From Eunapius fragilis (Eukaryota; Porifera; Demospongiae; Spongillida; Spongillidae), in the NCBI GenBank assembly GCA_963681505.1, contig OY811992.1, forward strand, positions 4,194,889-4,258,888: a DNA stretch of 64,000 bases. Direction: 5' to 3'. How positions within the stretch are numbered: position 1 is the stretch's first letter; every line of letters starts with the position of its first letter. Positions 1,052-63,257 of the stretch are shown piece after piece. The notes below the pieces were generated by a model that saw only the letters and a list, made by a program, of their open reading frames with translations, had not been told where the DNA came from and did no database searches. A program made the position numbers and the translations under genes.

Positions 1052-1053
1052 CG

Positions 1054-1071: not shown

Positions 1072-1951
1072 GGCGAACGAGAGCGAAGAAGTTGGAGCCA
1101 CTCGGACAACTCAGCTCGAAAGGGTGGCCGCGTCCGTTGGCGCTAGTCGCCCTCTCGTTTCGCCTGATTCTTTCTCAGGTCTGTCTAGTTGGGCGGAGTG
1201 GATAGACCATTTCGAAGCCGTTGCTTTGGTGAACGGTTGGGACGACGAAAAGAAGCGGTTGTGGTTGCCAGTGCGACTAACAGGGAAAGCGCAGACAGCG
1301 TGGAAGCGACTTTCCTCGGAAACCAAAGATGACTACGAAGCAGCAAAGGAAGCGTTACAAAAACGTTTCGAGCCAGAAAGTAAGCGAAAGTTGTATTTTG
1401 TTGAATTTCAGGCCAGGAGACGCAAGAGAGATGAGTCTTGGGGTGATTTCGCAGACGAGCTACGGGTCCTGGCTGAAAAGGCTTTACCAGAGCTGGACGA
1501 TAAAGCAAAAGAATTGCTTGCTCTCGAGAGATACCTAGGTGAGCTTGATAACCCTCAGGTTGCATTTGCTGTTCGACAGCGAGAGCCGAAAACTGTCGAC
1601 GAAGCTGTCACCGCGACGCTGGAGATACAGTCCTATCTCCGCCCGGGATTGCGACAAGAGCTCAATGCATCAGCGGTCGCAGAGGAAGCAGAAGCCCACA
1701 GTATTTCCGTCACGTCTTCCAGTGGTAGCGGACAGGACGCGGTGGTAGAAATGCTGAAAGCATTAACAGAGCGGCTGGAAAGGTTGGAAACTTCGTTAGG
1801 GGGAACGGTGGCTGGCAAGAGACCAATGCGGACGACTGGTACAGGTGGTGGGGGCGGAAGTAAGCGAATTGTATGCTACAGATGTGGGCAGGTGGGCCAT
1901 ATCGCAAGAAACTGCGCTGCTGAGGGCAAATGCTCGAAGCAGGGAAACTAG
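1070..1951 (+). CDS. gag: Gag polyprotein of gypsy element
   Basis: The 293-residue Gag packages element RNA into particles. The central part (about 35-195) is a retrotransposon capsid-like domain rich in W, R and E, with FVEFQARRRKRDESWGDFAD as a recognisable stretch. Near the C terminus a CCHC zinc knuckle reads CYRCGQVGHIARNC (about residues 266-279). The reading frame is uninterrupted and ends in TAG at 1949-1951, directly after a GGGAAAC heptamer. The start chosen is the first ATG after the primer site. Nucleotide use looks intact and young. Confidence 0.93.
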   Translation: MANESEEVGATRTTQLERVAASVGASRPLVSPDSFSGLSSWAEWIDHFEAVALVNGWDDEKKRLWLPVRLTGKAQTAWKRLSSETKDDYEAAKEALQKRFEPESKRKLYFVEFQARRRKRDESWGDFADELRVLAEKALPELDDKAKELLALERYLGELDNPQVAFAVRQREPKTVDEAVTATLEIQSYLRPGLRQELNASAVAEEAEAHSISVTSSSGSGQDAVVEMLKALTERLERLETSLGGTVAGKRPMRTTGTGGGGGSKRIVCYRCGQVGHIARNCAAEGKCSKQGN

Positions 1952-4900: not shown

Positions 4901-5313
4901 TAAAACCAGTAGGCGATGAAGTGCAAAATACTGATGCGAGCAGTGATCGTCGTGAGCCTGCACAGCCCCCTGGGAGTCAGCTTCAGTTTTTTGAAGAAGA
5001 CGATCAAGACGTCGTGGTGGATCCCGGGACTCGGAATGAGGAACAAGAGCCGGATGGGTCTGGCCTTGCTGAACTTCCGCCGGCCCCTGGAGAACGTTCA
5101 CACACCGCACCAGAATTGGCTCCTGGTGTGAACCCTGAAGGCGCAGCTCTCGAGTCTGAAACAGCAGTAAGCCCGGCGTCGAGATCTGACGAATCTGGTA
5201 GGTCCAGACATCAGAAACGAGTACGTCAATCGCCACCGGAACAATCGGCCTCCCGCTACCCCAAACGTACACGTAACGCCCCCTCCCGGTATGGCTGGAA
5301 TCCTGTTTGGTGA
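1930..5313 (+). pseudogene. pol: Gypsy Pol (protease, truncated RT, RNase H remnant, integrase), in-frame internal deletion
   Basis: The frame is open for 1127 codons from 1930; translation probably enters by frameshift at 1942-1948. Domains in order: aspartic protease with VDTGATVSLF (near residue 51); RT fingers and palm through WASPIILVPKKDGSLRF, the LDL motif and MPFGLCNAPAVFQRLMDLV; then an abrupt jump near 3372-3390 to RNase H tail residues ending NADALSRL; integrase zinc HHCC (about 3859-3990), catalytic D (near 4069), D in LHSDQG (near 4241) and E in GLVERF (near 4354); and a GPF-type C-terminal module. The YxDD RT active site and most of RNase H are absent, so the product cannot reverse transcribe. 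The reading frame is preserved across the deletion. Confidence 0.93.
1942..1948 (+). promoter_or_regulatory. Probable -1 ribosomal frameshift heptamer at gag/pol junction
   Basis: In the gag frame the bases read G GGA AAC followed at once by the TAG stop. This fits the X XXY YYZ slippery rule. A one-base backward slip enters the frame of pol (GGG AAA CTA GAA), which is open to 5313. I did not model a downstream pseudoknot. Confidence 0.8.
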
Positions 5314-13797: not shown

Positions 13798-16700
13798 GTA
13801 AGCAGACGAATACCATATGTTTGTACATACGTTCGTGAACCACCGTGTGCGCGTACAAACTCCAGCGTGGGAGCCTGTTAAGGCGTTTGAGTTTTATGAA
13901 CCGTGCTCACGCGAGTGCGTGTTTATGTGAGTATACATGTATAGACATTCATTAGGGTACATTGTTTGAATGCACGTTTTATGAACTGACATTGCTACAA
14001 GTATATGTAAAATTATGTGCATACGCGGCGGGTAGGTTTATTCCGGTTCTTTAAAAGCAGCCCAACCACCTCTGAGTGCTGTGAGCCTGAGGGGACCCCA
14101 GTACTTTGATGAAATCAGCGATAACTCGAGCAGTGGGATAGTAGCGGGATCAGTCATCCAGCTCGTCTGTTCAGCCAGTGGACAGTTCACTGCTCCCCAC
14201 ATACAGTGGACCAGGAATAATATCACCATTCCAGAGACTGCACAGTTGCCTCACCTGATGGTAAAGAGTAGGACAGAGAACACCATCACTTCCTCAGTCC
14301 TCACTATCTATGGTTTCTCATCAAGTGATAATGGAAGCTATCAGTGTTGTGCTTCGGACAGTACTTTGAGTAAACCATTACTGCTAACAGGTTAGTGTCA
14401 CATCAGATCCTTTACTTCAATTACCCGTCCTTTACTCTGCAGCTATCGATGGCTCCAACGTATTGAGAATAACACGAGAACTTAGTAACTCCACATCAGA
14501 CAGAACATCTGTTCCTCTTGGAAGTTCAAATATTTCAACCAATGGATCCTTTCTGAGATGTTCAGCTGAACAGCCTTCTTCATCCTCTCTTGCTGCACCC
14601 AGTGTGATATGGTTGAAGGATGGGACACAGCTATCTGGTGATGGGGTTAGAGTTGTTGTGACAACTACCAATACCACTATCATGGGATCAAACAGGACTG
14701 TAAGCTTTGTCAAAATCTTCAACTTCAGCCAGTCTGATGCTGGAGTGTACCAGTGTGTGTTCTATGACACTCCATCCCAGGGAGGAGAGGTCGTTACCAC
14801 TAGACCATACAAAGTGGACACAGGTATGGACAGCTACTTTTCATGTGCTGGAATGAATGTGTTTTATCGTTATTTGTTAGGTCCAGTCTTCATTACTGCT
14901 GCTTCCCCTTTATCATTCACCCTCTGTCCCCCTGAGCCTCTGGTCCTCCAAATGAAGGCAGGAGGGGAGTATGCTGGTATTCAGTGGACCAGGACACCAA
15001 TAGCTCTGAATGTCAGCAGTGATGAACTGGTGGACTTTCAGCAGACATTTGTGAGGACTGTGACATCAGAGCAGGACTGGGGACTATACTTGGCGTCCAT
15101 TATCTTGCCCAATATTTCATCTTCCAACTTCACAATCGCAATCAACATATCTTGTAATACCACTGTTCCCAGTAAGTCAATAGACAAGACTGAATAAGAG
15201 TACTGGAATGTTTATTGATAGAAAAAATGTAAAACAAAAAATGGATGGACACTATTATTGTTTAGAACTCTGTAAGCAGTTGTCTGGGAATCATAACCCC
15301 TCCCTTTTTTCATCTGTGGCAGAGGCCACACCCCAACACAGAGTCACCTTGTCAGGTTGGAAACATTTTGGGTCATTCCATAACCTGTGGGACTCAAATT
15401 GGATGCTATAGTTTAGATTTAGTGCAAATACTCATATTTGTCTGACCTAATATGAAGGTTAGTTTGGTCCAAATAAAGTTTAAAAACGTGAATGGTTTAC
15501 GAAATACACCATCATGAATAATTTAATTTTTTTCTTACTGAAAATTTTGACTTTGGAATGTCATAACTCCCTTCTCACAAACTTTGGCATCACATCGATG
15601 CTCGCAATAATATGTGTTTATGGGGCAGTGAAAGGGTTAACAATAAATGTGTATATAGCATGGTTTTCAATATTTAGGTCATTTGCAGAAATAATAAATA
15701 TTTTACTGAATGGAAGCCCTTCATGTATGAGTATGAGCTAGTTCTGGGAACCACAGAGGATTTAACAGTAAGACGCCTTTTTTTCTTTCTTCATGGTTGT
15801 TTATAGTACTAATTAAACGTAAGTGTTGTTTACATATGTCTCAGGTGATATTACACAATAGTTACCCAACCTAAGTAAACTGTGGTTTATGGTATGGAAC
15901 ATGACTCAGCACATGTTGTATATCCTCCGTACGTGTCACGTCCTAATAACGCACTCAGTTGTTTTGTTCAAGCGGTGGTTTGTAAAGCGATGTCAAAAAA
16001 CCTGTTGTGACCCATTCAAAACTTATCAGTACATGTATCGTGTATACTACATCTACGGAAAGGCTACTATGCCCCGCCCTCCTCCCCTGCCACCTATTTG
16101 GGGGTTATACTAGGCTACAGCTAGTCTGGGGACCCGACTGATGGTTGTACTACTATCATTCTGGAGACGTGCTCGCAACCGTGCGCTACATGTAGTGCAC
16201 GAATTCGTGTAGCATGAATCTGAGTTGAAGCCCCACATATGAGCATGTAGTCATTAACTATAAGCCATAAGGTTATGAAACATATAAATGTGTATTTGTA
16301 ATGGCCGATTTACGTTGATGCTATCCATTACGCTGCGGAAAGACTTGGGGTTTACCGAGTTAAAGACCCCCAGCATAGGCGGCCCCTGGAGTGGGCCGCC
16401 AGTGTTCATAGCGGTTGCTATGAACACTGATGGTTTCTTTAGTTACCAATGTATGCGCTTTATTTTCTCTATGAATCGAGCTCCGAATTTTTTCTATGAC
16501 CGAGCCGGTACTGTATAGTGCACAAAACGGATGCGATCATGTCTCCAGACTGAGAGTTAGTAGTACAACCATCAGTCGTTTCCCCAGGGTACCTAACAGC
16601 GTCACGTCGTGGGAAAGGCTAGTAGGGCCTGCAGCTTCGTGTGAAAGGCTGTTAGGGCTTTCGGTAACTATTTATGGATTGCGCTCACGAATTTTCCTCA

Positions 16701-19366: not shown

Positions 19367-22300
19367 AGGGGGGGGCGCCATAAAACGGGGAGGGGGGCAT
19401 CTGCCCCAAATGCCCCCCCCCCCCCCCCCCCCCCCTCCCCCATGCGGACGCCACTGATATTACTCCGACTTCTGATTTTGTAAATACATGAAGACAATGA
19501 ATGGTTTCCATTCAGCAAAAGTATATATTAGGGTACCATTCTGCAAAAGACCTAAATATTGAAAACCGTGCCCGTGCTATGTACAAATTTATTCTTTAAC
19601 CCTTTCGCCTCTCCCATAAACACATATTATTGTTGGGTTGTACACTAAGAGAGCATCGATGTGATGCCAAATAAAGCCATACACACTTTGTGAGAAGGGA
19701 GTTGTGACTCTCCAACTGAGTGGAAATTAATTAATTTTCCTGACAATTAATTTTGTAAACCATTCACGTTATCAAACTGTTTTTGGGACCAAACTAACCT
19801 TCATATTAGGTCAGACAAATATGAGTATTTGCACCAAAATCTAAAGCATAGCATCCAGTTTGAGTCCCACAGGATATGGAATGAACCTCTTGGCTTGTTT
19901 GTTTCTGAGGGAAGAGGGTAGGGCTGCTGCCTTTTTGGTTCTCCTGGAGGTATAAGAAATCCACTCCCCCACTGCTAAGGTGTGTGGCAGTTTGTTGTGG
20001 GTTGTGTGATTTACCTTTTTGGTTACCCTAGGTTGCAGGTGATGCTAAATATTTCCTGTAACTGAATGCTGGTGGATCTGTTTGGGGCTGGGTGGGGATG
20101 TCTCCACCTGCCCACCTGATGGGTGTGGTTTCATGGCTTTGTGGTCTGTGGTGTGGTCAAATCAATGCACTACACATCCTGTTACCACTGGAACCCCAAA
20201 TCCTACTCCTCCTTTTTACTCCAAATGACTTGATGACATATATACATGTAGGGAGTTGTCCCTTCCCCCCCCCCCCCTCCACACTATTCACTTTGACTGC
20301 TGGTATGTGGGCTTCTGTAGATAGTTCCCCAAGTGGCATTTGCACTCACCACCACGCTGCCATAGTGATGTCTAAGGCGATGGTACAAGCCATAAAGATT
20401 GTGTATTATAGGCGGTGTGGTGATGTAATTCTTTGCGAATTGTTGGCCGTGATGTGAAAGAAAAACTTCTACACTGTTTTACATGGTACAGATGTGTATG
20501 TGTCAGGGATACCTGGGTCATAAGATTGTTATGATCTGATGCTCCTTGCATTGGTTTGCAGTAGTCGTTTTAAGAATCTTGAGGTGGAGGTGTACCAGAG
20601 ATGTGTGCAGGTGTACCTAGGGTGTGCTCAGGTGTACCAGGGATGTGTGCAGGTGTACCAGGGATGTGTGGATGTGTACCAGGAATGTGTTCAGGTGTAC
20701 CAGGGATGTGTGGAGGTGTACCAGGGATGTGTACAGGTGTACCAGGGATGTGTGGATGTGTACCAGGGATGTGTTCAGGTGTACCAGGGATGTGTGCAGG
20801 TGTACCAGGGATGTGTGCAGGTGTACCAGGGGTGTGCTCACGTGTACCAGGGATGTGTGCAGATGTACCAGGGATGTATGGATGTGTACCAGGAATGTGT
20901 TCAGGTGTACCAGGGATGTGTGGAGGTGTACCAGGGATGTGTGGAGGTGTACCAGTGATGTGTGCAGGTGTACCAGGGATGTGTGCAGGTGTACCAGGGA
21001 TGTGTGCAGGTGTACCATGGATGTGTGCAGGTGTACCAGGGATGTGTGCAGGTGTACCAGGGATGTGTGCAGGTGTACCATGGATGTGTGCAGGTGTACC
21101 AGGGATGTGTGGAGGTGTACCAGGGATGTGTGCAGGTGTACCAGGGATGTGTGGAGGTGTACCAGGGATGTGTGCAGGTGTACCAGGGATGTGTGCAGGT
21201 GTACCAATGATGTGTGGAGGTGTACCAGGGATGTGTGCAGGTGTACCAGGGATGTGTGCAGGTGTACCAGGGATGTGTGCAGGTGTACCAGGGATGTGCT
21301 CACGGGTACCAGGGATGTGTGGAGGTGTACCAGGGGTGTGTGCAGGTGTACCAGGGATGAGTGCAGGTGTACCAGGGATGTGTACCAGGGATGTGTACCA
21401 GGGATGTGTACCAGGGATGTGTGCAGGTGTACCAGGGACGTGTGCAGGTGTACCAGGGATGTGTGCAGGTGTACCAGGGATGTGTACCAGGGATGTGTAC
21501 CAGGGATGTGTGCAGGTGTACCAGGGATGTGTACCAGGGATGTGTACCAGGGATGTGTGCAGGTGTACCAGGGATGTGTACCAGGGATGTGTACCAGGAA
21601 TGTGTGCAGGTGTACCAGGGATGTGTGCAGGTGTACCAGGGATGTGTGCAGGTGTACCAGGGATGTGTACCAGGGATGTGTACCAGGGATGTGTGCAGGT
21701 GTACCAGGGATGTGTACCAGGGATGTGTACCAGGGATGTGTGCAGGTGTACCAGGGATGTGTGCAGGTGTACCAGGGATGTGTGGAGGTGTACCAGGGAT
21801 GTGTGCAGGTGTACCAGGGATGTGTGCAGGTGTACCAGGGATGTGTGCAGGTGTACCAGGGATGTGTGCAGGTGTACCAGGGATGTGTTCAGGTGTACAA
21901 GGGATGTGTGGAGGTGTACCAGGGATGTGTGCAGGTGTACCTAGGGTGTGCTCAGGTGTACCAGGGATGTGTGGAGGTGTACCAGGGATGTGTGCAGGTG
22001 TACCAGGGATGTGTGCAGGTGTACCAGGGATGTGTGGATGTGTACCAGGAATGTGTTCAGGTGTACAAGGGATGTGTGGAGGTGTACCAGGGATGTGTGC
22101 AGGTGTACCAGGGATGTGCTCAGGTGTACCAGGGATGTGTGCAGGTGTACCAGGGATGTGTACAGGTGTACCAGGGATGTGTGGATGTGTACCAGGAATG
22201 TGTTCAGGTGTACCAGGAATGTGTGGAGGTGTACCAGGGATGTGTGCAGGTGTACCAGGGATGTGTGCAGGTGTACCAGGGATGTGTGCAGGTGTACCAG

Positions 22301-25300
22301 GGATGTGTGCAGGTGTACCAGGGATGTGTGCAGGTGTACCAGGGATGTGTGCAGGTGTACCAGGGATGTGTGCAGGTGTACCATGGATGTGTGCAGGTGT
22401 ACCAGGGATGTGTGCAGGTGTACCATGGATGTGTGCAGGTGTACCAGGGATGTGTGGAGGTGTACCAGTGATGTGTGCAGGTGTACCAGGGATGTGTGGA
22501 GGTGTACCAGGGATGTGTGCAGGTGTACCAGGGATGTGTGCAGGTGTACCAGGGATGTGTGCAGGTGTACCAGGGATGTGTACAGGTGTACCAGGGATGT
22601 GTGGATGTGTACCAGGGATGTGTGCAGGTGTACCAGGGATGTGTGCAGGTGTACCAGGGATGTGTGCAGGTGTACCATGGATGTGTGCAGGTGTACCAGG
22701 GATGTGTGGAGGTGTACCAGGGATGTGTGCAGGTGTACCAGGGATGTGTGCAGGTGTACCAGGGATGTGTGCAGGTGTACCAGGGATGTGTGCAGGTGTA
22801 CCAGGGATGTGTGCAGGTGTACCAGGGGTGTGCTCACGTGTACCAGGGATGTGTGCAGATGTACCAGGGATGTGTGGATGTGTACCAGGAATGTGTTCAG
22901 GTGTACCAGGGATGTGTTCAGGTGTACCAGGGATGTGAGCAGGTGTACCAGGGATGTGAGCAGGTGTACCAGGGATGTGTGCAGGTGTACCAGGGATGTG
23001 TGCAGGTGTACCAGGGATATGTGGAGGTGTACCAGGGATGTGTGCAGGTGTACCAGGGATGTGTGCAGGTGTACCAGGGATGTGTGCAGGTGTACCAGGG
23101 ATGTGTGCAGGTGTACCAGGGATGTGTGCAGGTGTACCAGGGATGTGTGCAGGTGTACCAGGGATGTGTGCAGGTGTACCAGGGATGTGTGCAGGTGTAC
23201 CAGGGATGTGTGGAGGTGTACCAGGGATGTGTGCAGGTGTACCAGGGATGTGTGCAGGTGTACCAGGGATGTGTGGAGGTGTACCAGGGATGTGTGGAGG
23301 TGTACCAGGGATGTGTGCAGGTGTACCAGGGATGTGTGCAGGTGTACCAGGGATGTGTGCAGGTGTACCAGGGATGTGTGCAGGTGTACCAGGGGTGTGC
23401 TCACGTGTACCAGGGATGTGTGCAGATGTACCAGGGATGTGTGGATGTGTACCAGGAATGTGTTCAGGTGTACCAGGGATGTGTTCAGGTGTACCAGGGA
23501 TGTGAGCAGGTGTACCAGGGATGTGAGCAGGTGTACCAGGGATGTGTGCAGGTGTACCAGGGATGTGTGCAGGTGTACCAGGGATATGTGGAGGTGTACC
23601 AGGGATGTGTGCAGGTGTACCAGGGATGTGTGCAGGTGTACCAGGGATGTGTGCAGGTGTACCAGGGATGTGTGCAGGTGTACCAGGGATGTGTGCAGGT
23701 GTACCAGGGATGTGTGCAGGTGTACCAGGGATGTGTACAGGTGTACCAGGGATGTGTGCAGGTGTACCAGGGATGTGTGGAGGTGTACCAGGGATGTGTG
23801 CAGGTGTACCAGGGATGTGTGCAGGTGTACCAGGGATGTGTGGAGGTGTACCAGGGATGTGTGGAGGTGTACCAGGGATGTGTGCAGGTGTACCAGGGAT
23901 GTGTGCAGGTGTACCAGGGATGTGTGCAGGTGTACCAGGGATGTGTGCAGGTGTACCAGGGATGTGTGCAGGTGTACCAGGGATATGTGGAGGTGTACCA
24001 GGGATGTGTCCAGGTGTACCAGGGATGTGTGGAGGTGTACCAGGGATGTGTGCAGGTGTACCAGGGATGTGTGCAGGTGTACCAGGGATGTGTGCAGGTG
24101 TACCAGGGATGTGTGCAGGTGTACCAGGGATGTGTGGATGTGTACCAGGGATGTGTCCAGGTGTACCAGGGATGTGTGCAGGTGTACCAGGGATGTGTGC
24201 AGGTGTACCAGGGATGTGTGCAGGTGTACCAGGGATGTCTGGAGGTGTACCAGGGATGTGTGCAGGTGTACCAGGGATGTGTGCAGGTGTACCAGGGATG
24301 TGTGCAGGTGTACCAGGGATGTGTTCAGGTGTACCAGGGATGTGTGCAGGTGTACCAGGGATGTGTGGAGGTGTACCAGGGACGTGTGCAGGTGTACCAG
24401 GGATGTGTGGAGGTGTACCAGGGATGTGTGCAGGTGTACCAGGGATGTGTGGAGGTGTACCAGGGATGTGTGGAGGTGTACCAGGGATGTGTGCAGGTGT
24501 ACCAGGGATGTGTGCAGGTGTACCAGGGATGTGTGTAGGTGTACCAGCGATGTGTGCAGGTGTACCAGGGATATGAGGAGGTGTACCAGGGATGTGTGCA
24601 GGTGTACCAGGGATGTGTGCAGGTGTACCAGGGATTTGTGCAGGTGTACCAGGGATGTGTGGAGGTAGCATTATACTTTTACTTTTATCGCTCCAATCAC
24701 CAGATGGGCCTGCCTCATTCCACAGTTCGCCATCCATATACAGCTCCACCCCTGTCTCCACCCCGTACTTCGTCTCCACCCCCTACTTCGCCACCACCCC
24801 CCTACCAACCAGAGCAGTCCCCCTGGTTAATGGAGCTGCTATCATGCCACTGGTAGCAACAACAGTGGGTGTTGTGGGCGGAGTCTTCATCATTGCTATA
24901 CTGGTTATTGTGGTCTGCACAGCAGTAGGCGTGGCTCATGCAAGGAGGTCTGGAAACAATAGCAGGTATAGCAGAAATGGTATAAGATTTGTGTTGCATC
25001 CAGGTCCAACTATATTCCACACATTAGAGGATGAGGGTTGGTGTTAAATCTAGACTAGGAAACAAGAAAATATAGTGTCACGTTTGCTGACCCCTATTGA
25101 GGCGTATGGTAAAAGAAGATATATTTGCTCTCAAAACACAATCCAATTTCTCTTTTCGTCTTTAACCACCACTGCAATATAAGATGATACTGATCATTAA
25201 TAGCCGTTCTGTAATATGAATCAACTTGCATGAGATTGTATACATGGTGCAAACCTCAGCCATTAGTAACATTCCAGAGAAGGGCTGCATATAAATATCC

Positions 25301-26902: not shown

Positions 26903-27715
26903 GGACGTCTTTGCTTTCCATCTCTATCGTGATTTTTCAAGTTCAGAATCCTCCAGGATGATGAGGCCAACACATGAAGGAACACAAGGTGTCAAGAGAG
27001 ATAGCCCTGATAGATGAATAATCTATGATTGTATCTTTGGCGCATGTTGTGAGGGTGGGCTGATTATCCGAAAAAATGTTTTGCTTAGGTAGTGGATGAA
27101 ACGAGGAAATAATGCGCGTCTGTCGTAAATCCGATGTTAAAATTTATCATGTATGCTAAAATGTCGGATAAGGTAGCGAACAAGAGGGAACCCGTTCCTG
27201 ACTACAACGTATGGTCATGTGATGCTAAATTACTTGTACACATTTGCCAGTAAATTAAATCAAACATGCTTTGGAGATATTGATAAATAGGTTATTTTAG
27301 GTACACCTAAAATAACCTATTTATCAATAAGAGGGAGGTGGGATGGCAGTATAAAACCTCCAACTTTTTAAAACTCAACATGTTCTCATGTGATCAAGTT
27401 GTCTTGTGATGTAAATATGTATTGTGTTGTACCACACTATGAAATGACCACTACCTGTGATTGTTGCAGAGCCTCTTCCAAAGAATGAGTGTGGGTTTGT
27501 GGGATGTGGCTCAACTTTCAGGTTTCAATCTTTGTTGAAAGGAGGCACTAGTTGAGGGAAGGAGCTCTCATGAGAGTGTATGTTTGCATTCTCTGTCACC
27601 TTACACCCTCACAACAGCATCAACCTTCCCAGATGTGGATTGCTACTGGTTTAAAGCATATAATTGCAGCTGTAGATCAGTACAGAAAACTATCAAAAGT
27701 TCTATGTCATCTCCA
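26903..27715. repeat. Segmental duplication, partial copy C
   Basis: Matches 7753-8560 and 58650-59440 and ends abruptly at the gypsy fragment. It contains a 48-bp palindrome absent from the other copies. Confidence 0.85.
27280..27327. repeat. 48-bp perfect palindrome
   Basis: TTGATAAATAGGTTATTTTA is mirrored around GGTACACC. Copies A and B have only the left half at this place. Confidence 0.9.
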
Positions 27716-29412
27716 GTGGGTTGACATATGAACAGTGCTTGATATACATAGATGACATCATTGTGTTTAGTGCCACATTTCCGCAACATTTGGAACGGTT
27801 AAAAACTGTTCTTGAACATTTGGCTGCAGCAGGACTTAGACTTAAGCCTAGCAAGTGCCATTTTGCTCAAAACCAGATATGCTACCTGGGGCACATTGTC
27901 TCCCAGCAAGGAGTCCAAGCTGATCCAGAAAAATTGAGAGCTATCTCGATGTATCCTGCTCCCCACAACATCAAAGAACTGCGCCATTTCCTTGGTTTAG
28001 CAAACTACTATCGGCGATTCATTGAAGGCTATTCTGCTATTGCTGAACCCCTCCACAAGCTCACTCGAAAAACAGCTGGAGGCTACAAGTGGAGTAATGA
28101 ATGCGACGATGCATTTTCACTGTTGAAGCAAAAGCTCACAATGTCACCAATTTTGGCCTACCCTTGCTTTCAGCAACCATTCATCCTAGCAACTGATGCT
28201 TCAGAGTTTGCAGTAGGCGGTGTCTATAGTCAGAAAATCAATGGTGTAGAGAGGGTCATATCTTACTGGAGTCGTCAGTTGAATAAGGCTGAGCGTAATA
28301 ATTCAACTGTGGAGAGGGAAGCTTTAGCAGTCGTTGCAGCTGTTAAAGAATTTTACCCATACCTGTATGGCCGAACCTTCACCTTGTTTACTGACCATAA
28401 CCCACTAACCTCTCTCCAGGGTCTCAAGGACACAGGGGGACGTATAACTAGATGGCTTCTTTTCCTGCAGCAGTTTGATATGAAGGTGCTGTACAGACCA
28501 GGCAGAAATAATGGGAATGCTGATGGCCTGTCACGAAGACCACAAGGTACGGAGGATCCACCACAGTCCCAGTTACATGATGATAAGGTGAGAGAGGTGT
28601 GTGGAATAACCTGCATTGAAGACACAGAGAAGCTAAGGCAAGAACAGGTCAGAGATGTGTTCACTTCTCAGATCATCGAGGTGCTAAAAAATGGGGAGTC
28701 GACAGATAAGAGAGGGAAGTACAGGTACTTAATGAATGATGGTGTTTTGTGTCGTCTCTTGATTGGTGGTAGCCACCCCCCTCAAGTAGTAGTACCAGTT
28801 ACCTTGCGGCCACTTGTCATTGAGCAGTTGCATGACAAGTCAGGGCATTTGGGTATTCATAAAACTCTAGAAAAACTGAGAGAGCGTTTCTACTGGCCTG
28901 AGTGTGACCTTGATGTAAAGAATGCTATACAGCAGTGTGATCGTTGTCAGAAGAGCCCTAAACAGCATTCGCCTATTGGTACCATCAAGAGCAACTATCC
29001 ATTTGAAAAGCTGTCATGGGATATTATGGGCCCCTTGCCTACGTCTTCCTGTGGAAATAAATACATCCTGGTAGTGACCGATCTTTTCACCAAATGGGTA
29101 GAAGCCTTTCCTTTGGCCAAAACTGACAGTGTCACTCTAGCTAAAGTGTTGGTGAATGAGATTGTGTACCGTTATGGGGTACCACGGTATCTACACAGTG
29201 ATCAGGGCCGGGGCCAAACTTGTGAGTGAAGTAATTAAATCTCTTTGTGCAACACTGGGCATTAATATAGGACACAAACCACAGCATACCACCCAGAGGG
29301 AAATGGCCAGGTAGAACGGTTCAATCGTACTCTTGAATCAATGCTAGCAAAGGTTATTGCTGACCATCAAAGAGATTGGGATGAGCATATACATAATGCA
29401 TTATTTGCATCC
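27716..29412 (+). pseudogene. pol: Ty3/gypsy pol fragment (RT to integrase), no LTRs
   Basis: Starts within RT just before CLIYIDDIIVFS, which holds the YxDD active site. RNase H follows (ILATDASEFAVGG, EREALAVVAAVKEF, TDHNPL, NADGLSR), then the integrase zinc module (HLGIHKTLEKLRERFYWPE ... CDRCQ) and catalytic core (WDIMGPLP, HSDQG). A frameshift near 29205-29275 separates the HPEGNGQVERFNRTLES part. It is cut at about 29412 by a CT-rich minisatellite. The lineage differs from the element at 889. No LTR, gag or protease was seen. Confidence 0.92.
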
Positions 29413-30284
29413 CTCCCCTCCACATCCTTCACCCCTTCCCTCCACATCATTACCCCTCCCCTCCACATCCTTCACCCGTCCCCTCCACATCTTTCACCCC
29501 TCACCTCTCCTCCACATCCTTCAAACATCCCCTCCACATCCTTCACCCATCCCCTCCACATCCTTCTCCCCTCCCCTCCACATCCTTCTCCCCTCCCCTC
29601 CACATCCTTCTCCTTCCCCTCCACATCCTTCTCCCCTCCCCTCCACATCCTTCTCCCCTCCCCTCCACATCCTTCTCCCCTCCCCTCCACATCCTTCTCC
29701 CTCCCCTCCACATCCTTCTCCCCTCCCCTCCACATCTTCTCCCCTCCCCTCCCCTCCACATCCTTCTCCCCTCCCCTCCACATCCTTCTCCCCTCCCCAC
29801 CACATCCTTCTCCTCTCCCCTCCACATCCCTCTCCCCTCCCTTCCACATGCCAATATAAATTTGAACATGGTGATTTGAATCCATAACTACTGTATGTAT
29901 AACTACAAGTATCATGTTGTAATGACTGATTACACAGTACACAGCAATCATGAAACTAAATTGAAGCAAAATTTATATTAAAGAAAGGACAGCATTGATG
30001 ATGATTCAGTTCCATTACAAAAAGGGGGATGGGGGCATGGTTAGGGTGGAGTCAAAAAGGTGACGTGGGCATTATATGTCAATGTCTGACATGGGCATCA
30101 GTTTTTGGTGGCCATGTTGTTCACATCTTCATACATTGGCTGGCCCCATGCATACCGCCCAAGGTTGCCATGCGACCCATGGACATTACCCGGGAAGAGG
30201 TGGGAGGCAGCTGCCGTGGGCAGGACCCCCTTGACGTAACGATGGAGGGAGGCTGAGGCTACAACCTCTGTCTCTTTGTGCGTG

Positions 30285-34027: not shown

Positions 34028-34271
34028 TATAAGGGTGCATGGAGGGGTGTGATGCATGCATGTTTCGGTTTCCGGACCGCTAACCGGTTGTGCTGTATTT
34101 AATGTATGTACACGTGTCGCATTGGCTTTTCGTCCCAGTTGTAAAGAACCAATTGTGAGTACTCAGCGTACATTGCATTACTTGTACAAGTTGAATTCAA
34201 ACTATTGTCACTACACAGCTTAGAGCAGTTACAGCAGCCATTATGTCTCTTCAAGGTTCTCAGTGCCTATT

Positions 34272-34426: not shown

Positions 34427-34443
34427 AATTACGGCTTGGTTGG
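34427..34443 (-). CDS. Micro-exon gene last coding exon with stop
   Basis: The acceptor TTTTCACTTCACTGCAG is the best pyrimidine tract of the locus. The 17-nt exon reads CCA ACC AAG CCG TAA in phase 0, then a GTAAGTTT donor follows the stop, so a 3' UTR exon may lie further on, past the AC repeat. Confidence 0.6.
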
Positions 34444-37152
34444 CTGCAGTGAAGTGAAAATTTAACACAACGTGACAGCAGTAAACGAATAAATAACTCA
34501 AAAGAACTTGATTAAAAACTTACCTTCGATTCAGTATTGTGTGTCCATGGTTGCATGACATTGTTAGTCAGTTGGGTTAAGTGTTATGGGAAATGTATAC
34601 TTACACACTATGCAATATCCATTGTGATGAGGGATAAAATAAGGAGTTATGGGAAACACAAAAGTATTGTTACTTACACACTGCATTACGCATAATAGCA
34701 TTCATGTTGACAAAGAGTAAGTAGGCATGTTAATGTGCAATGAAAATTGCAGAATTGGTTATACTTACGCACTGCATGAATTGTCAATAATAGTGTCATT
34801 GACAAGGAATAAGCAGGTTTGTTAAGGTGCAGTGGGAAATGTAATATCATTGATACTTACTAACTGCATTGCATGTTCATAAGTATAAATGCATGGTAAA
34901 GTTCAATGGGAAATGCAACATGACTGATATACTTACGACCTGAATTGTTCATATTAGTAATAGCAATAAGGAGCATTGCCCGAAATAATCATAGTAACAA
35001 GAAAAAAAAAGAAGAAGTAAAATGCAATGGAAAATGCAACATCATTCAATGATACTTACGACGTCCTGCCGGGTGAATTGTTCATTATAGTGCCCATGCC
35101 AACAAGTTAAGTAATAATCGAAGTGCAAAGGAAAGTGCATTGTTCATAATACCATCCATGGCAACAAGGCACAAGTAAAGTGCAATGAGCTAGAAATGTG
35201 GCAATATCATTGCAATATACTTACGCCGCCCTGCGGGGTGAATTTTTCATAATAGTACCCATGCCAACAAGTTAAGTATAAAGTGAAGTGCAAAGGAAAG
35301 TTAACATCATTGATACTTACAGGCTGCAGTTTTTCACAATGCATCCAGGGCAACAAGCAATAGGTAAAGTACAATGGGAAATGCACGATACTTACACTCT
35401 GCATTGTTCATAATAGCATCCATGACAGCATGCAAGCACAGTAATGTGCAATGGAAATTGCAAGATCACTGATACTTACTGTCTGCATTGTTCATAATAG
35501 TAAAGTAGGCATGATAAAAACAGTGGGAAATGCAACATAAATCGATTCTTACAGTCTGCAATGTTCATAATAGTGTTCGTGCCAAAAGAGTTATAAGTAG
35601 GTGTGGTATGCAATGGGAAATGCTGCATCACTCGTACTTACCCTCTGCATTATGCGTGGTGACAAGGTCCGAAAAAATTTAAGACATCTTACAGTGCAGA
35701 AATATAACATCCAATGGTACTTACACACTGGATTGTATAAGTATATTTTCATAGTTCCATGATGACAAGGTCAAAATAATACATAACCCATGTCAAGATG
35801 CAATTGGAAAATGAGAATCCAACATCATTGATACTTACAGGCTGTATTGCATCCATGGTGACAGAAGATTAGTATGCGTGTTAATGAAATGCAACATCAT
35901 TGATACTTACGGGCTTCTATAGCATAGTTCATAACAGTACCATGGTGACAAGGAATTTAATTTTATGCATGTTAAAGACGACGAAATGTTACTACCTTCT
36001 GCATTGTTATCACCGGAAATAGTTTACATGGTGGCAAGGAATTAGTGGGCATGGTAACGGTGCAGTGGGGAATGCTTTACCACTGAAACTTACGCACTAC
36101 ATCATTCGTATAATTGCATGGCGGAAAGGAATAAGTAGGCATATTAAGGAAATGCAATATCATTGGAAGAAATTAGAAGGCATGGTATTGAGGCATGGGA
36201 ACTGCTACGATATACTTACTCCACCTACTCCCTGCAACAAGAATAATAGGTCATTGATACGGTATATCGGAGGAAATGCAACATATTAGATACTTACGGT
36301 CAGCTTTGTTCATAACAATATCCATGGTAACAAGGAATAAGTAGGGAATGTATAATGGTGCAATGGGAAACACCACGTGACTTATACTTACATGATACTG
36401 CATAAATCACAGCAACAAGAAGTATGTAGGGCAGTAAAACAATGGGAATTGTAACACCATTGATTCTTACCACCTTGATTTTTCACAATAGCATCCAGCG
36501 TGGTAACGAGAATTATAAATGGTTGGAAATGCAACCTCGTCCGTATACTTACCGTCTGCAGCGTTTTTAAAAAATCAATCAGCGGCAACAAGAAATACGT
36601 ATATTTTCATTATAAAGCGCAAAGATTGTTGATACATACACACTGAATTGTTGATATTTGCATCCATGTTGACAAGGAACAAGTGCAATAGTAATTGAAA
36701 ATGCAACAACGTTGATACTTACTTTCTCCTTCTTCATATTTAGTATCAATGCCGGTGCACGGCAGTACGTGAAGATGATTTCAATTGTTCATATCACACA
36801 TAAAAACGCTAATTCTGACCTGGGCTTCTCCACTCAAGTAATTATTCATCATTTCTTTGAGTATAGAAAAAATTTACATAATTATACCGGTATTGATTAT
36901 AAATCAATCACGCCTAACAGCAGCGCACTAATCTTACCGTTCGCAGGAACGTCGACGTCGTCACGGTTAGTCAAAAACTTGCCGCTGTCACTGATATCGA
37001 CCACTTTGTCTGTATATTTCTGCTGCTGTTGCAAGTGAAACAATCGTTGGCTCTCTCAGATGACGCTTGCGATGGCAAACCTCATAGCTCGAAAGACGGG
37101 CGTCAGCGAAAAACGCCAGTAACGTCGCAAGAACAGCCAGTTCCTTCAGCAT
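34427..37152 (-). CDS. Micro-exon gene: secreted Cys-rich peptide assembled from one-codon exons (proposed)
   Basis: Minus-strand model: exon 1 37081-37152 (signal peptide), exon 2 36938-37025 (acidic spacer), a small phase-correcting exon at 36820-36824 or 36820-36827, 24 micro-exons of 3-12 nt from 36731 to 34605, and a last exon with TAA at 34427-34443. Every micro-exon sits between AG and a GTAAGTAT-like donor, and all lengths are multiples of three (sum 99 nt). In phase 0 there is no stop; the other two phases meet TGA in 36298-36303 or TAG at 35642-35644. The product would be about 92 residues: leader, acidic pro-region, then a short domain with six Cys spaced C-x10-C-x3-C-x11-CCC. Schistosome micro-exon genes are a loose analogue, but 3-nt exons in such number are not something I know of. 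The role of the peptide is unknown. The unit is tandemly duplicated, with introns about 65-160 bp. Confidence 0.7.
34518..34525 (-). other. Zero-length exon / recursive splice site (AG directly on GTAAGT)
   Basis: The minus strand reads CGAAG/GTAAGTTT with no bases between acceptor AG and donor GT. No other AG is near enough to serve. This is the form of a recursive splice site and fits as a degenerate last unit of the array. Confidence 0.5.
34605..35230 (-). CDS. Micro-exons 18-24 of the array
   Basis: In transcript order: 35230-35225 GGC GGC Gly-Gly; 35065-35060 GAC GTC Asp-Val; 34939-34937 GTC Val; 34863-34861 TTA Leu; 34771-34769 TGC Cys; 34680-34678 TGT Cys; 34607-34605 TGT Cys. The two 6-nt units share an expanded acceptor context (CACCCCGCAG and CACCCGGCAG), showing that they are sister duplicates. 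Confidence 0.68.
35321..35998 (-). CDS. Micro-exons 9-17 of the array, all three bases long
   Basis: In transcript order: 35998-35996 AAG Lys (donor GTAGTAAC, the weakest); 35913-35911 CCC Pro; 35841-35839 CCT Pro; 35727-35725 TGT Cys; 35644-35642 AGG Arg; 35555-35553 ACT Thr (donor GTAAGAAT); 35482-35480 ACA Thr; 35398-35396 AGT Ser; 35323-35321 CCT Pro. Most acceptors are in an AACAATGCAG-like context preceded by CTATTATG. The triplets vary freely while the AG and donor do not. Confidence 0.68.
36094..36731 (-). CDS. Micro-exons 1-8 of the array
   Basis: In transcript order (minus strand): 36731-36723 AAG GAG AAA Lys-Glu-Lys, with three in-frame AG choices; 36642-36640 TGT Cys; 36555-36553 ACG Thr; 36473-36471 GTG Val; 36397-36392 TAT CAT Tyr-His; 36303-36298 CTG ACC Leu-Thr; 36231-36220 GGA GTA GGT GGA Gly-Val-Gly-Gly, after a pyrimidine-rich TTCTTGTTGCAG; 36096-36094 TGC Cys. 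Donors read GTAAGTAT, except GTATGTAT (36640), GTAAGAAT (36471) and GTAAGTTT (36094). Confidence 0.68.
36820..36827 (-). CDS. Candidate phase-correcting micro-exon (5 or 8 nt)
   Basis: The minus strand shows GAGAAG/CCCAG/GTCAGA, or the AG three bases earlier. Either choice adds a length of 2 modulo 3 and would move the frame from phase 1 to phase 0, as the array needs. The donor GTCAGA is weak, so this is the least certain piece of the model. Confidence 0.35.
36938..37025 (-). CDS. Micro-exon gene exon 2, acidic spacer
   Basis: The acceptor CACTTGCAACAG is followed by CAGCAG (tandem NAG choices). 29 codons plus one base include TDKVVDISDSGKF and DDVDVPAN, rich in Asp. The donor GTAAGATT is strong. 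It ends in phase 1. The 55-bp upstream intron is 37026-37080. Confidence 0.65.
37081..37152 (-). CDS. Micro-exon gene exon 1, signal peptide
   Basis: 24 codons, MLKELAVLATLLAFFADA then RLSSYE. The hydrophobic core and small residues before Arg suggest cleavage after ADA. The donor GAG/GTTTGC keeps phase 0. The ATG is the first after the TATA-like box. Confidence 0.65.
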
Positions 37153-37209
37153 TATTGCCGGTTCAGTCGGTTATCGCAAAGGTATATGAAATGTGACTGG
37201 AACAAACTG

Positions 37210-37217
37210 TTTAAATA
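37210..37217 (-). promoter_or_regulatory. TATA-like box of the micro-exon gene
   Basis: The minus strand reads GTGTATTTAAACAG, placing TATTTAAA about 58 bases before the ATG at 37152. Plausible but untested. Confidence 0.4.
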
Positions 37218-45715: not shown

Positions 45716-45925
45716 GTACCAGGTGTACCAGGGATGTGTGCAGGTGTACCAGGGATGTGTGCAGGTGTACCAGGGATGTGTGGAGGTGTACCAGGGGTGT
45801 GTGCAGGTGTGCCAGGGATGTGTGCAGGTGTACCAGGGATGTGTGGAGGTGTACCAGGGATGTGTGGAGGTGTACCAGGGATTTGTGCAGGTGTACCAGG
45901 GGTGTGTGCAGGTGTACCAGGATGT
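45716..45925. repeat. 21-bp minisatellite, short array
   Basis: About 10 units of the GTGTACCAGGGATGTGTG type, placed before a transmembrane exon just as at 20586-24668. Confidence 0.93.
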
Positions 45926-61878: not shown

Positions 61879-63257
61879 GTAAGCAGACGAATACCATACG
61901 TTTGTACATACGTTCGTGAGCCACCGTGTGCGCGTACATGCAGACTCCAGCGTGGGAGCCTGTTAAGGCGTTTGAGTTATGAACCGTGCTCACGCGAGTG
62001 CGTGTTTATGTGAGTATACATGTATAGACATTCATTAGGGTACATTGTTTGAATGCACGTTTTATGAACTTACATTGCTACAAATATATGTATAATTATG
62101 TGCATACGGCGGGTAGGTTTATTCCGGTTCTCTATTTAGCAGCCCAACCACCTCTGAATGCTGTGAGCCTGAGGGGACCCCAGTACTTTGATGAAATCAG
62201 CGATAACTCGAGCAGTGTGATAGTAGCGGGATCAGTCATCCAGCTCTTCTGTTCAGCCAGTGGACAGTTCACTGCTCCCCACATACAGTGGACCAGGAAT
62301 AATATCACCATTCCAGAGACTGCACAGTTGCCTCATCTGATGGTTAAGAGTAGGACAGAGAACACCATCACTTCCTCAGTCCTCACTATCTATGGTTTCT
62401 CATCAAGTGATAATGGAAGCTATCAGTGTTGTGCTTCTGACATCAATGGCAGTACTTTGAGTAAACCATTACTGCTAACAGGTTAGTGTCACAGATGTAT
62501 TACTTCAATCACCCATCCTTTACTCTGCAGCTATCAATGGCTCCAACATGTTGAAGATAACACGAGAACTTAGTAACACCACATCAGACAGAACATCTGT
62601 TCCTCTTGGAAGTTCAACCATTGGAACCTTTCTGAGATGTTCAGCTGAACAGCCTTCTTCATCCTCTCTTGCTGCACCCAGTGTGATATGGTTGAAGGAT
62701 GGGACACAGCTATCTGGTGATGGGGTTAGGGTTGTTGTGACAACTACCAATACCACTATCATGGGATCAAACAGGACTGTAAGCTTTGTCAAAATCTTCA
62801 ACTTCAGTCAGTCTGATGCTGGAGTGTACCAGTGTGTGTTCTATGACACACCATCCCAGGGAGGAGAGGTCATCACCACTAGACCATACAAAGTAGACAC
62901 AGGTATGGACAGCCACTTTTCATGTGTAGGCTATGTATGCTGGAATGAATGTGTTTTATCTTTAATTGTTAGGTCCAGTCTTCATTACTGCTGCTTCCCC
63001 TTTATCAGTCACCCTCTGTCCCCCTGAGCCTCTGGTCCTCCAAGTGGAGGCAGAAGGAGAGTATGCTGGTATTCAATGGAGCAGGACACCAATAGTTCTG
63101 AATATCACTAGTGATGAATTGGTGGACTTCCAGCAGACATTTGTGAGGACTGAGACATCAGAGCAGGATTGGGGACTATACTTGGTTTCCATTATGATGC
63201 CCAATAATTCATCTTCCAATATCGCAATCAACATATCTTGTAACACCACTGTGCCCA
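61812..63257 (+). CDS. Ig-superfamily receptor gene B, 5' part (spliced model)
   Basis: Exons 61812-61878 (signal), 62143-62481, 62531-62902 and 62973-63257 mirror gene A with the same phase 1 junctions and donors (GTAAGC, GTTAGT, GTATGG, GTAAGT). Exon lengths differ only by multiples of three (339 against 330, 372 against 381, 285 against 291), so both copies stayed under coding constraint. Domains 1 and 2 keep C-W-C; domain 3 lacks the second Cys as in A. Membrane and tail exons would lie beyond the window. Start chosen as the first of two ATGs. Confidence 0.78.
62143..62481 (+). CDS. Receptor B exon 2, Ig domain 1
   Basis: 113 codons with LFCSASG, IQWTR, DNGSYQCCASDINGS. Acceptor CTATTTAGCAG. 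Confidence 0.9.
62531..62902 (+). CDS. Receptor B exon 3, Ig domain 2
   Basis: 124 codons with FLRCSAEQ, VIWLKDG, SDAGVYQCVF. Donor GTATGG. Confidence 0.9.
62973..63257 (+). CDS. Receptor B exon 4, divergent Ig-like domain
   Basis: 95 codons with VTLCPPEP, GIQWSR, EQDWGLYLVS. Second core Cys absent as in A. Confidence 0.8.

Follow-up and report, generated by a model that had tools for sequence, protein, structure and literature searches.

One gene on the minus strand of the window, the stretch of 64,000 nucleotides of the Eunapius fragilis genome analysed here, very probably codes for a short secreted peptide, belongs to a large gene family and has an array of micro-exons spliced codon by codon through a sequential ratchet. 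Nearly every residue of the peptide lies in its own three-letter exon, thus the message would need to be spliced one codon at a time. Direct reading of the strand bore out the original prediction of 24 micro-exons between 34605 and 36731, as well as its claim that all 24 have lengths divisible by three (3, 6, 9 or 12 nt). Its inference of codon-by-codon splicing is supported by such lengths arising without any frame preference in the model, by the absence of stop codons from exact units across the genome and by avoidance of AG before acceptors, and further by conserved splice flanks, entry into the array in phase 0, a phase-0 stop kept in close paralogs and the size of the family.

Gene model and proposed splicing

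The window model has 29 predicted exons including the 24 micro-exons, the rest being exon 1 (72 nt), exon 2 (85 nt), exon 3 (35 nt), a terminal coding exon (17 nt) and a last exon. The stretch from the ATG through the terminal exon covers 2,726 genomic bases, of which 311 nt (72+85+35+102+17) would be left after splicing, or 209 nt if the array were skipped. The outer exons first proposed, at 37081-37152 and 34427-34443, fit this model together with the array, but several features went unrecognised in that outline: a pair of exons lying between exon 1 and the array (36938-37022 and 36820-36854), the phase in which the gene is read, the terminal exon's stop codon and membership in a large gene family. 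The donor type said to be shared by every unit is GTAAG in 22 of the 24, and the other two have weaker donors (TGT/GTATGT and AAG/GTAGTA). The predicted features are as follows.

37209..37217, minus strand: TATA-like element TATTTAAAC upstream of the gene, putative promoter; TATTTAAA in five aligned close paralogs and L023
37081..37152, minus strand: exon 1, ATG and signal peptide MLKELAVLATLLAFFADARLSSYE (judged by eye); phase 0 exit, donor GTTTGC
36938..37022, minus strand: exon 2, putative propeptide QKYTDKVVDISDSGKFLTNRDDVDVPAN(G); phase 1 exit; similar exon 1/exon 2 join in E. muelleri proteins, P0003 and P0006 among them
36820..36854, minus strand: exon 3, (E)MMNNYLSGEAQ; phase 1 to phase 0, donor GTCAGA; like exon in L022, L024, L025 and E. 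muelleri P0003 and P0006
36723..36731, minus strand: micro-exon 1, AAGGAGAAA (KEK)
36640..36642, minus strand: micro-exon 2, TGT (C), donor GTATGTAT; TGT in 5/5 close paralogs, donor GTATTT in L021
36553..36555, minus strand: micro-exon 3, ACG (T)
36471..36473, minus strand: micro-exon 4, GTG (V)
36392..36397, minus strand: micro-exon 5, TATCAT (YH); 3 nt in L020, L021 and L022
36298..36303, minus strand: micro-exon 6, CTGACC (LT); 3 nt in L020, L021 and L022
36220..36231, minus strand: micro-exon 7, GGAGTAGGTGGA (GVGG); GGA in L019, a 9-nt difference; internal AGs leave the boundaries ambiguous
36094..36096, minus strand: micro-exon 8, TGC (C)
35996..35998, minus strand: micro-exon 9, AAG (K), uncertain; weak donor GTAGTA, identical bases in 5/5 close paralogs, missed by the unit-finding models
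35911..35916, minus strand: micro-exon 10, AAGCCC (KP); weak acceptor, under the threshold of one unit-finding model
35839..35841, minus strand: micro-exon 11, CCT (P)
35725..35727, minus strand: micro-exon 12, TGT (C)
35642..35644, minus strand: micro-exon 13, AGG (R)
35553..35555, minus strand: micro-exon 14, ACT (T)
35480..35482, minus strand: micro-exon 15, ACA (T)
35396..35398, minus strand: micro-exon 16, AGT (S)
35321..35323, minus strand: micro-exon 17, CCT (P)
35225..35230, minus strand: micro-exon 18, GGCGGC (GG)
35060..35065, minus strand: micro-exon 19, GACGTC (DV)
34937..34939, minus strand: micro-exon 20, GTC (V)
34861..34863, minus strand: micro-exon 21, TTA (L)
34769..34771, minus strand: micro-exon 22, TGC (C)
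34678..34680, minus strand: micro-exon 23, TGT (C); TGC in L020 and L022
34605..34607, minus strand: micro-exon 24, TGT (C); under the threshold of one unit-finding model
34523..34524, minus strand: zero-length AG/GTAAGT site between micro-exon 24 and the terminal exon, putatively used; in 5/5 close paralogs
34427..34443, minus strand: terminal coding exon, CCA ACC AAG CCG TAA TT (PTKP); stop at 34429-34431, phase-0 TAA kept in 5/5 close paralogs
34100..34266, minus strand: last exon, modelled as 3' UTR, acceptor ..AATAG/GCACTGAG; the 34100 end is arbitrary; by eye, similar sequence follows other loci's arrays

The array stands out in the window by its splice motifs: AGNNNGTAAGTA occurs 14 times, always inside the array (expected 0.49; none of 100 shuffles reaches 14), and AGNNNGTAAG is matched 22 times (expected 6.9), 17 times inside the array and five times elsewhere.

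In the proposed model, exon 1 would encode the signal peptide and exons 2 and 3 a propeptide, while the 24 symmetric micro-exons, mostly of a single codon and in phase 0-0, would supply nearly the whole mature peptide KEKCTVYHLTGVGGCKKPPCRTTSPGGDVVLCCCPTKP, with the stop carried by the short terminal exon. The introns of about 84 nt would be removed by the ordinary spliceosome, presumably one after another, since both splice sites of a 3-nt exon could hardly be occupied at once. At each step an acceptor would be used, three bases would stay and the adjoining GTAAGT donor would serve the next intron, a ratchet of the recursive type that advances one codon per step; the zero-length site at 34523..34524 resembles a ratchet point of recursive splicing. 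Because the bases that define the donor are intronic, the codon itself would be free. Gain or loss of whole exon-intron units would then add or drop one residue and leave the frame intact.

Two other readings of this region were tried and set aside. If the micro-exons are read in phase 1, the window's last exon opens, but the window array then contains two stops. The last exon was also considered as a coding, cysteine-rich tail, but its frame varies among paralogs (by eye) and it is thus treated as 3' UTR, with the alternative reading kept.

Unit lengths, reading phase and stop codons

The array model permitted all lengths from 1 to 15 nt with no frame preference, and in 21 loci 569 of 572 micro-exons proved divisible by three (545 of 3 nt, 12 of 6, 10 of 9 and 2 of 12), leaving three that break the rule; the antisense control yielded one unit. 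At the loosest thresholds the count was 649 of 703, with 82 in the antisense control. An earlier model, built on longer matrices and tighter cut-offs, gave 501 units, 500 of them divisible by three, and was replaced, as it missed many visible units. The same rule is seen genome-wide: the exact pattern GCAG-N3-GTAAGTATCAATG occurs 383 times, whereas N1-2 spacing does not occur and N4-5 spacing occurs once, in a decayed array that has lost splice sites. Spacings of N6-14 occur ten times, eight of them in or beside family loci (6, 6, 6, 6, 9, 9, 9 and 12).

None of the 383 exact triplets is a stop codon, and 59 of the 61 sense codons are used. Across the modelled arrays, phase 0 has one stop in 642 codons, in a terminal exon, whereas phases 1 and 2 have 12 and 67 stops in 621 codons (22.3 expected); with near-identical loci removed, the stops number 1, 10 and 60 for phases 0, 1 and 2 in 564 codons. 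Arrays free of stops number 12/21 in phase 1 and 1/21 in phase 2. The near-identical loci L019, L022 and L029 were kept in the counts of micro-exon lengths, codons and stops by phase, and AG before acceptors, but left out of the pairwise significance tests and the count of donor consensus. Unit counts are not independent, because the units are related by descent.

A large family of array genes

The window gene belongs to a set of at least 53 related loci that share a signal-peptide exon in the 219-Mb genome, a number counted by hand (35 + 15 + 3) with exon-1 and exon-2 matches merged and C1:22384520 (E 2.7) left out. All 21 loci chosen solely by the signal-peptide exon carry a micro-exon array, preceded in each by the exon-1-like exon on which they were selected. 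These arrays have 15 to 60 modelled units of predicted exons, separated by introns with a median of 84 nt; the units have arisen by tandem duplication, and their introns can be aligned. In addition, clusters of units without a listed signal exon alongside lie at C3:9108 kb, C7:2611 kb, and C11:6864 and 6872 kb. Upstream exons were modelled in 14 of the 21 loci (7 left out), with the boundaries of exons 1 to 3 set by eye, and the array is entered in phase 0 in all 14 precursors.

The predicted peptides are often cysteine-rich (C..C..C..CCC, a recurrent six-cysteine pattern) or rich in proline and arginine, and their most plausible interpretation is as diversifying defence or toxin-like peptides. 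One precursor tested had no Pfam match, and there was no credible PDB match. C-terminal amidation, suggested by G-K-stop ends in L033 and L037, was dropped, as a further donor follows the lysine codon in L025 and L028.

Annotated proteins of Ephydatia muelleri, a freshwater sponge, contain homologous exons 1 to 3 with like joins. A profile search gave 38 matches at E<=1, 13 of them named as E. muelleri (eight spelled out, five by Em codes) and 25 unnamed ENA entries; no flatworm protein was among the 38 by name, and, judged by these match names, no sequence relation to schistosome and tapeworm micro-exon genes appeared. By eye, the array product was found neither in searches of 5.8 billion proteins nor in the 13 E. 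muelleri matches, and its absence from the latter is consistent with the difficulty that 3-nt exons pose for gene finders. One of them, P0012, was first read as a micro-exon product because of its C-terminal end NYCCCFRI, but frame analysis by eye led this to be dropped: exon 3 is followed by one unit intron, apparently retained, and then by sequence like the last exon. Residues 136-176 of P0012 are a repeat present at many places.

Constraint on splice sites

In 10 of 11 paralog pairs the splice flanks have changed less than the introns, and the remaining pair is identical; in the three pairs tested, the difference has p values of 2e-4, 1e-6 and 2e-5. Donors are near consensus, with 464 of 526 matching GTAAGTAT at seven or eight of eight positions. 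Pairing of GTAAGTAT with U1 over all eight positions was not retained: the single U1 copy read (1 of 13) starts TAACTTACC, which supports pairing from +1 to +6 only. Upstream of the acceptor, an AG within 45 nt is present in 24 of 445 distinct introns (26 AGs, vs 687 in shuffles). The unit consensus includes GA, making the GA count an unfair control for this zone, and a context test was therefore used on 407 units, each matching the consensus at 13 or more of 20 bases: A-to-G changes number 2 in 840 where an AG would arise vs 169 in 1,815 elsewhere (summed by hand).

Divergence of codons between family members

Among diverged members of the window's clade, codon differences are 3-5 times intron differences. 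Between the window gene (WIN) and L020, orthologous units at alignable positions differ by.085 in introns and.377 in codons (Fisher p=1.2e-10). In two further clades the codon excess is not significant: L026-L038 has none (p=1), L032-L036 falls short of significance (p=.21) and L032-L034 shows the reverse (.036 v.067). Nor is it seen in the closest pairs, L020-L022 (.033 v.026) and WIN-L019 (0 v.007). In aligned unit pairs, cysteine codons are kept, with changes only between TGT and TGC.

One may argue that the rapid change of codons stems from gene conversion between units, which homogenises the introns, together with purifying selection that keeps the codons different, rather than from diversifying selection on codons. 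Within genes, flanks that differ by 3.7% accompany codons that differ by 39.8% (133 pairs), and flanks at 0.9% accompany codons at 14.7% (43 pairs), a ratio exceeding that between genes; the difference between orthologous units of WIN and L020 speaks against conversion, and we regard this account as somewhat unlikely.

Alternative readings and significance

That the array is a non-coding tandem repeat with splice-like motifs arising by chance is extremely unlikely: the units are plainly copies of one another in tandem and their introns align, as in such a repeat, but stop avoidance, the rule of three, the agreement of phase, the signal-peptide exon at the family loci and the decayed control array combine into sequence tests that weigh strongly against it. 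The gene could also be real with its units acting as ratchet points that aid removal of a long intron, the triplets being skipped and the mRNA consisting of exons 1-3 and the last exon. The conserved zero-length site at 34523/34524, the first 55 codons of the window's last exon, which are open, and E. muelleri P0012, in which, by eye, exons 1-3 lead to a last-exon-like tail and the array is missing, all fit such a scheme. However, skipped triplets would not be free of stops, would not hold a length divisible by three (N1-2 plus N4-5 = 1 vs 383) and would not keep cysteine codons or a downstream phase-0 stop, and the entire span of 2.7 kb leaves no long intron to remove, making this reading very unlikely.

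Alternative splicing as the main mode, in which symmetric codon exons are skipped in subsets and each gene yields many in-frame peptides, is a reading that starts from the same gene. Nearly all units are divisible by three and in phase 0-0, thus any subset stays in frame, and flatworm micro-exon genes are stated, in the available part of one source, to give single-residue variants by exon skipping (PMC7653826). Against this, cysteine codons in the aligned unit pairs are preserved as constitutive inclusion would predict and donors are uniformly near consensus, and we consider it rather unlikely. Codon-by-codon splicing of the array remains the preferred reading. It is possible, though we put it forward tentatively, that this exon = codon architecture of 15 to 60 tandem, ratchet-spliced single-codon exons is an evolvable, perhaps combinatorial, way for a sponge lineage to make peptides, in which residues are added, dropped or replaced through duplication, deletion or skipping of units, any subset staying in frame.

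If spliced in this way, the arrays would represent spliceosomal splicing at its limit, with at least two dozen consecutive exons below exon-definition size and codons unconstrained by splice sites. They offer a ready system for studying tiny-exon recognition and the order of splicing, and also suit the study of peptide evolution residue by residue without frameshifts. Array genes are hard for gene finders, thus a class of animal-encoded peptides may be overlooked in sponges and elsewhere.

Comparison with known systems

No comparable architecture was found in the open-licence PMC literature, a collection without preprints and with few subscription papers. Among sponge products, barrettides, asteropsins, stryphnines and halichondamide are likewise short and cysteine-rich, and the available excerpts on them do not mention a codon-exon structure. 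Barrettides and stryphnines, as far as the accessible text goes, have precursors with a signal, a spacer and a C-terminal core (PMC8713285, PMC13418204, PMC11382151). By eye, the excerpted barrettide signal peptide MATKVALLVVSALIAVAAA differs from MLKELAVL.. here, and the core bonds Cys5-Cys23/Cys7-Cys18 differ from the C-C-C-CCC framework, which places the array peptides outside the barrettides.

According to the available portions of the sources, spliceosomes can use tiny exons, such as the 3-nt exon of homothorax and the 1-nt exon of Arabidopsis APC11 (PMC7392893), but these are single exons in otherwise ordinary genes, whereas the sponge arrays have 15-60 in succession. Recursive splicing in Drosophila Ubx and kuz, as described in the accessible part of one paper, relies on a juxtaposed acceptor and donor and on stepwise removal (PMC8605326). 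The sponge genes resemble it in their tandem acceptor-donor sites, with the zero-length AG/GTAAGT in 5/5 paralogs and AG-N3-GTAAGT units throughout. In contrast, Drosophila ratchets, in the same text, usually leave nothing and act in long introns, while a sponge step would leave one codon and the introns are very short.

The closest parallel is with the micro-exon genes of schistosomes and tapeworms, which, in the available parts of the sources, have secreted products, runs of micro-exons mostly divisible by three and large, fast-evolving families (PMC10526429, PMC7653826, PMC4350168). The sponge genes likewise form a large family with runs of micro-exons divisible by three and probably secreted products. 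In the excerpts at hand, most schistosome micro-exons measure 15 bp, the smallest being given as 6 bp or 3 bp, and introns reach 5 kb (PMC10526429); unlike the flatworm genes, the sponge genes have 545 of 572 micro-exons of exactly 3 nt, a median intron of 84 nt and units that are tandem duplicates. The working definition of a micro-exon gene, as worded in the accessible text, is at least seven exons of which at least half are micro-exons (<70 nt, divisible by three) (PMC7653826), and 24 of the 29 exons predicted for the window gene, from DNA rather than RNA, are of this kind. Thus, the array gene falls within a published definition of micro-exon genes, with exon = codon as an added trait.

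Anatomy of the window gene

The original prediction had proposed 24 units of 3, 6, 9 or 12 nt between an AG and a donor, and the same 24 units are recovered on the minus strand, within a gene with the following predicted parts:

Upstream of the ATG, minus strand: promoter-like TATTTAAAC
ATG at 37152, minus strand: exon 1, 72 nt, encoding MLKELAVLATLLAFFADARLSSYE
36938-37022 and 36820-36854, minus strand: two ordinary exons between exon 1 and the array
Minus strand: array of 24 units, each an acceptor AG, 3, 6, 9 or 12 nt, and a donor
3' of the array, minus strand: terminal coding exon, 17 nt, CCA ACC AAG CCG TAA
From 34266, minus strand: last exon, after the 17-nt exon

The donor is GTAAG in 22 of the 24 units, and AGNNNGTAAGTA occurs 14 times in the 64 kb, every time inside the array (0.49 expected). 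Read from its first base, the last exon (34266 down to about 34100, minus strand) has no stop for 55 codons (ALRTLKRHNGCCNCSKLCSDN..). Other arrays are also followed by TGC-rich sequence resembling it, in frames that vary among paralogs (by eye). Skipping of the stop exon would result in an alternative Cys-rich tail from the last exon.

Other features of the window are as follows:

1031-5313: Ty3/gypsy-like retroelement, reverse transcriptase and integrase domains in 1924-5313
14388-15194, plus strand: Ig-domain exon, receptor-like gene (Pfam Ig, below the curated cut-off)
20584-24666: 4-kb minisatellite of a 21-bp unit (GTGCAGGTGTACCAGGGATGT), several frames open on both strands
27676-29859: Ty3/gypsy-like retroelement (by eye), frames continuing into a 22-bp minisatellite
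45720-45925: short array of the GTGCAGGTGTACCAGGGATGT unit
62028-62483, plus strand: Ig-domain exon, receptor-like gene (Pfam Ig)
62479-63027, plus strand: Ig-domain exon, receptor-like gene (by eye, resembles 14388-15194)

The three Ig-domain exons belong to duplicated receptor-like genes. The 4-kb minisatellite directly precedes an exon reading SPDGPASFHSSPSIYSS, and the short array is followed by an exon like it at 45.9 kb; two related genes thus seem to carry the same 21-bp repeat.

A gene family with predicted codon-sized exons

Among the matches listed, in a union of searches made by hand, no fewer than 53 loci, on 13 of the 24 contigs of the 219-Mb genome, match the signal-peptide exon or its promoter. 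The 21 loci read here, the window included, are the best-scoring of the signal-exon search, and all 21, selected by the signal exon, have an array. Clusters of units found at C3:9108 kb, C7:2611 kb, and C11:6864 and 6872 kb (among the first 100 places listed) have no listed signal-peptide exon adjoining, and may be additional genes whose signal exon has diverged, or else remnants.

As read from the sequence, the triplets of the units are codons. TAA, TAG and TGA are absent from the 383 exact units found genome-wide, where TGG occurs four times. The 21 arrays hold 642 phase-0 codons (the frame in which micro-exons are whole codons), using 59 of the 61 sense codons and containing one stop, in a terminal exon, against 22.3 expected under independence of the three positions; stops number 12/621 in phase 1 and 67/621 in phase 2. 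Without three near-identical loci, the counts in 564 codons are 1, 10 and 60 for phases 0, 1 and 2. Over all 21 arrays, those free of stops number 20, 12 and 1 in phases 0, 1 and 2, respectively. The terminal exon translates in five close paralogs as PTKP*, PIKP*, PPKL* or PLKL*, with a phase-0 TAA every time. Precursor models, which cover 14 of the 21 loci, reach the array in phase 0 in every case despite exon 1-3 lengths as varied as 72+85+35, 72+109+53, 184+23 and 72+66, which is supporting rather than independent evidence because exon boundaries were picked by eye with paralogs in view.

Exon length was assessed at the 21 loci with a dynamic-programming model permitting all lengths of 1-15 nt and favouring no frame. 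At strict thresholds it returns 572 micro-exons (545 of 3 nt, 12 of 6, 10 of 9, 2 of 12, and three of 5, 7 and 8 nt) and one on the antisense strand. At looser thresholds the share of multiples of three drops because noise enters: 592/601 (antisense 12), 603/626 (31), 621/645 (40) and 649/703 (82). Since 3-nt units served to train the splice-site matrices, that length might be favoured; independently of the matrices, exact GCAG-N3-GTAAGTATCAATG occurs at 383 places genome-wide, with none for N1-2 and one for N4-5, counts that are not independent since units descend from one another. N6-14 gives 10 places, eight in or beside family loci (6, 6, 6, 6, 9, 9, 9 and 12 nt) and two elsewhere (11 and 12 nt). 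The only N4-5 match, a 4-nt unit, sits in a decayed array (L043, G000:C13:3917901-3920900) in whose donors GT has become AT or GA, and which has no listed signal-peptide match; it is a natural control for an array without selection.

Constraint and divergence

Judged by comparison among paralogs and units, the splice sites of the array are under constraint. The 14 nt flanking each codon are less diverged than the remaining intron in 10 of 11 paralog pairs, the eleventh being identical; in the three pairs tested, divergence is.024 vs.085 (WIN-L020, the window gene and a close paralog; p 2e-4),.017 vs.073 (L032-L036; p 1e-6) and.043 vs.098 (L026-L038; p 2e-5). The 45 nt leading up to the acceptor are nearly free of AG, with 26 AGs, in 24 of 445 distinct introns, vs 687 in shuffles. 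Because units are related by descent, a test for mutation-made AGs was added: in 407 units near consensus, G replaces the consensus A in the last 20 nt in 2/840 cases after an A vs 169/1,815 after other bases (summed by hand).

The donor signal sits on the intron side: 464 of 526 donors agree with GTAAGTAT at 7 or 8 of 8 positions, and in 486 of 526 the three exonic positions agree with CAG at 0 or 1 of 3. Unit introns measure 55-115 nt (median 84), and retention would add an in-frame stop in 331/496 and a frame-shifting length in 354/496. Several 12-nt micro-exons of L026 and L038, e.g. TTTAAAAAGCTG (FKKL), hold an internal AG 3 bases before the donor, so that splicing could yield either FKKL or just L. 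The canonical U1 5' end is AUACUUACC; the one U1 snRNA copy read of 13 (L050, contig 15) begins TAACTTACC and departs from it at the first two bases.

Paralogs gain and lose whole units while the frame stays intact. In the more diverged pairs of the window's clade, codons differ more than introns while Cys codons are kept: WIN-L020 (.377 vs.085, p=1.2e-10), WIN-L021 (.253 vs.087), L020-L021 (.31 vs.079) and L019-L022 (.409 vs.083). The closest pairs of that clade show little codon excess (L020-L022,.033 vs.026; WIN-L019, 0 vs.007). Elsewhere there is no significant excess in L032-L036 (.111 vs.073, p=.21) or L026-L038 (.09 vs.098, p=1); L034-L036 gives.148 vs.077 (no p value), and in L032-L034 codons are less diverged than introns (.036 vs.067). 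Within genes, codon divergence is 39.8% for unit pairs with flanks 3.7% apart (133 pairs) and 14.7% for those 0.9% apart (43 pairs). Diversifying selection and intron homogenisation could each contribute to codon divergence.

Predicted products and relatives

The predicted precursor consists of a signal peptide, a propeptide (often acidic) and the array-encoded peptide, KEKCTVYHLTGVGGCKKPPCRTTSPGGDVVLCCCPTKP in the window. By eye, the window's clade and L023, L027, L031, L032, L034 and L036 show a recurring arrangement of six cysteines, C..C..C..CCC; among the other products some are rich in Pro and Arg (L033, LRRRPRPRPDPLRRLLPPLLPPIRGK) and some look like repeats (L035, PTTPTT). The one precursor searched against Pfam matched no family, and the PDB gave no credible match.

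At E<=1, a profile of eight precursors matched 38 proteins, of which 13 carry names from Ephydatia muelleri, a freshwater sponge (8 spelled out, 5 as Em codes), and the other 25 are ENA entries without a name. By eye, the exon 1/2/3 joins of P0003 and P0006 agree with models from the window's genome (..PQPYK/LKDTVEMSDKV../DMIISYVRAKNAEGLKTQ), and P0019 and P0029 continue past exon 3 into a unit intron. P0012 has no close full match in the window's genome. A papain-family protein at L042 (G000:C11:8684022), one of four peptidases read, has CGSSVSF instead of the active-site Cys motif, a silicatein-like Cys-to-Ser change. Together with the E. muelleri matches, this peptidase makes the window's genome probably that of a sponge close to Ephydatia. 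The E. muelleri proteins are no proof of array splicing, because the published gene models are AUGUSTUS predictions trained with RNA-seq (PMC7385117).

Proposed splicing and comparison with known systems

Array anatomy, phase and splice-site constraint are documented here, and from sequence we infer the steps of splicing: the spliceosome would recognise each ~84-nt intron as one unit and remove those on either side of a codon one after another, leaving one codon per step. The conserved zero-length AG/GTAAGT at 34523/34524 fits such stepwise, codon-by-codon removal. Juxtaposed acceptor-donor pairs are used by recursive splicing (PMC8605326).

A working definition of micro-exon genes, as given in PMC7653826, asks for at least seven exons, micro-exons making up half or more, and runs of four or more; under it the window gene, with its predicted exons, is a micro-exon gene. 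The micro-exons of flatworm genes of this kind are mostly 15 bp (PMC10526429), and those genes differ from the sponge arrays in exon size, intron size and tandem-unit origin; no sequence relation was found between the two. Since the window gene falls under this definition, exon and intron sizes differ, and no report of arrays of single-codon exons was found in the open-licence literature searched, we regard the sponge arrays as a new and extreme form of micro-exon gene.
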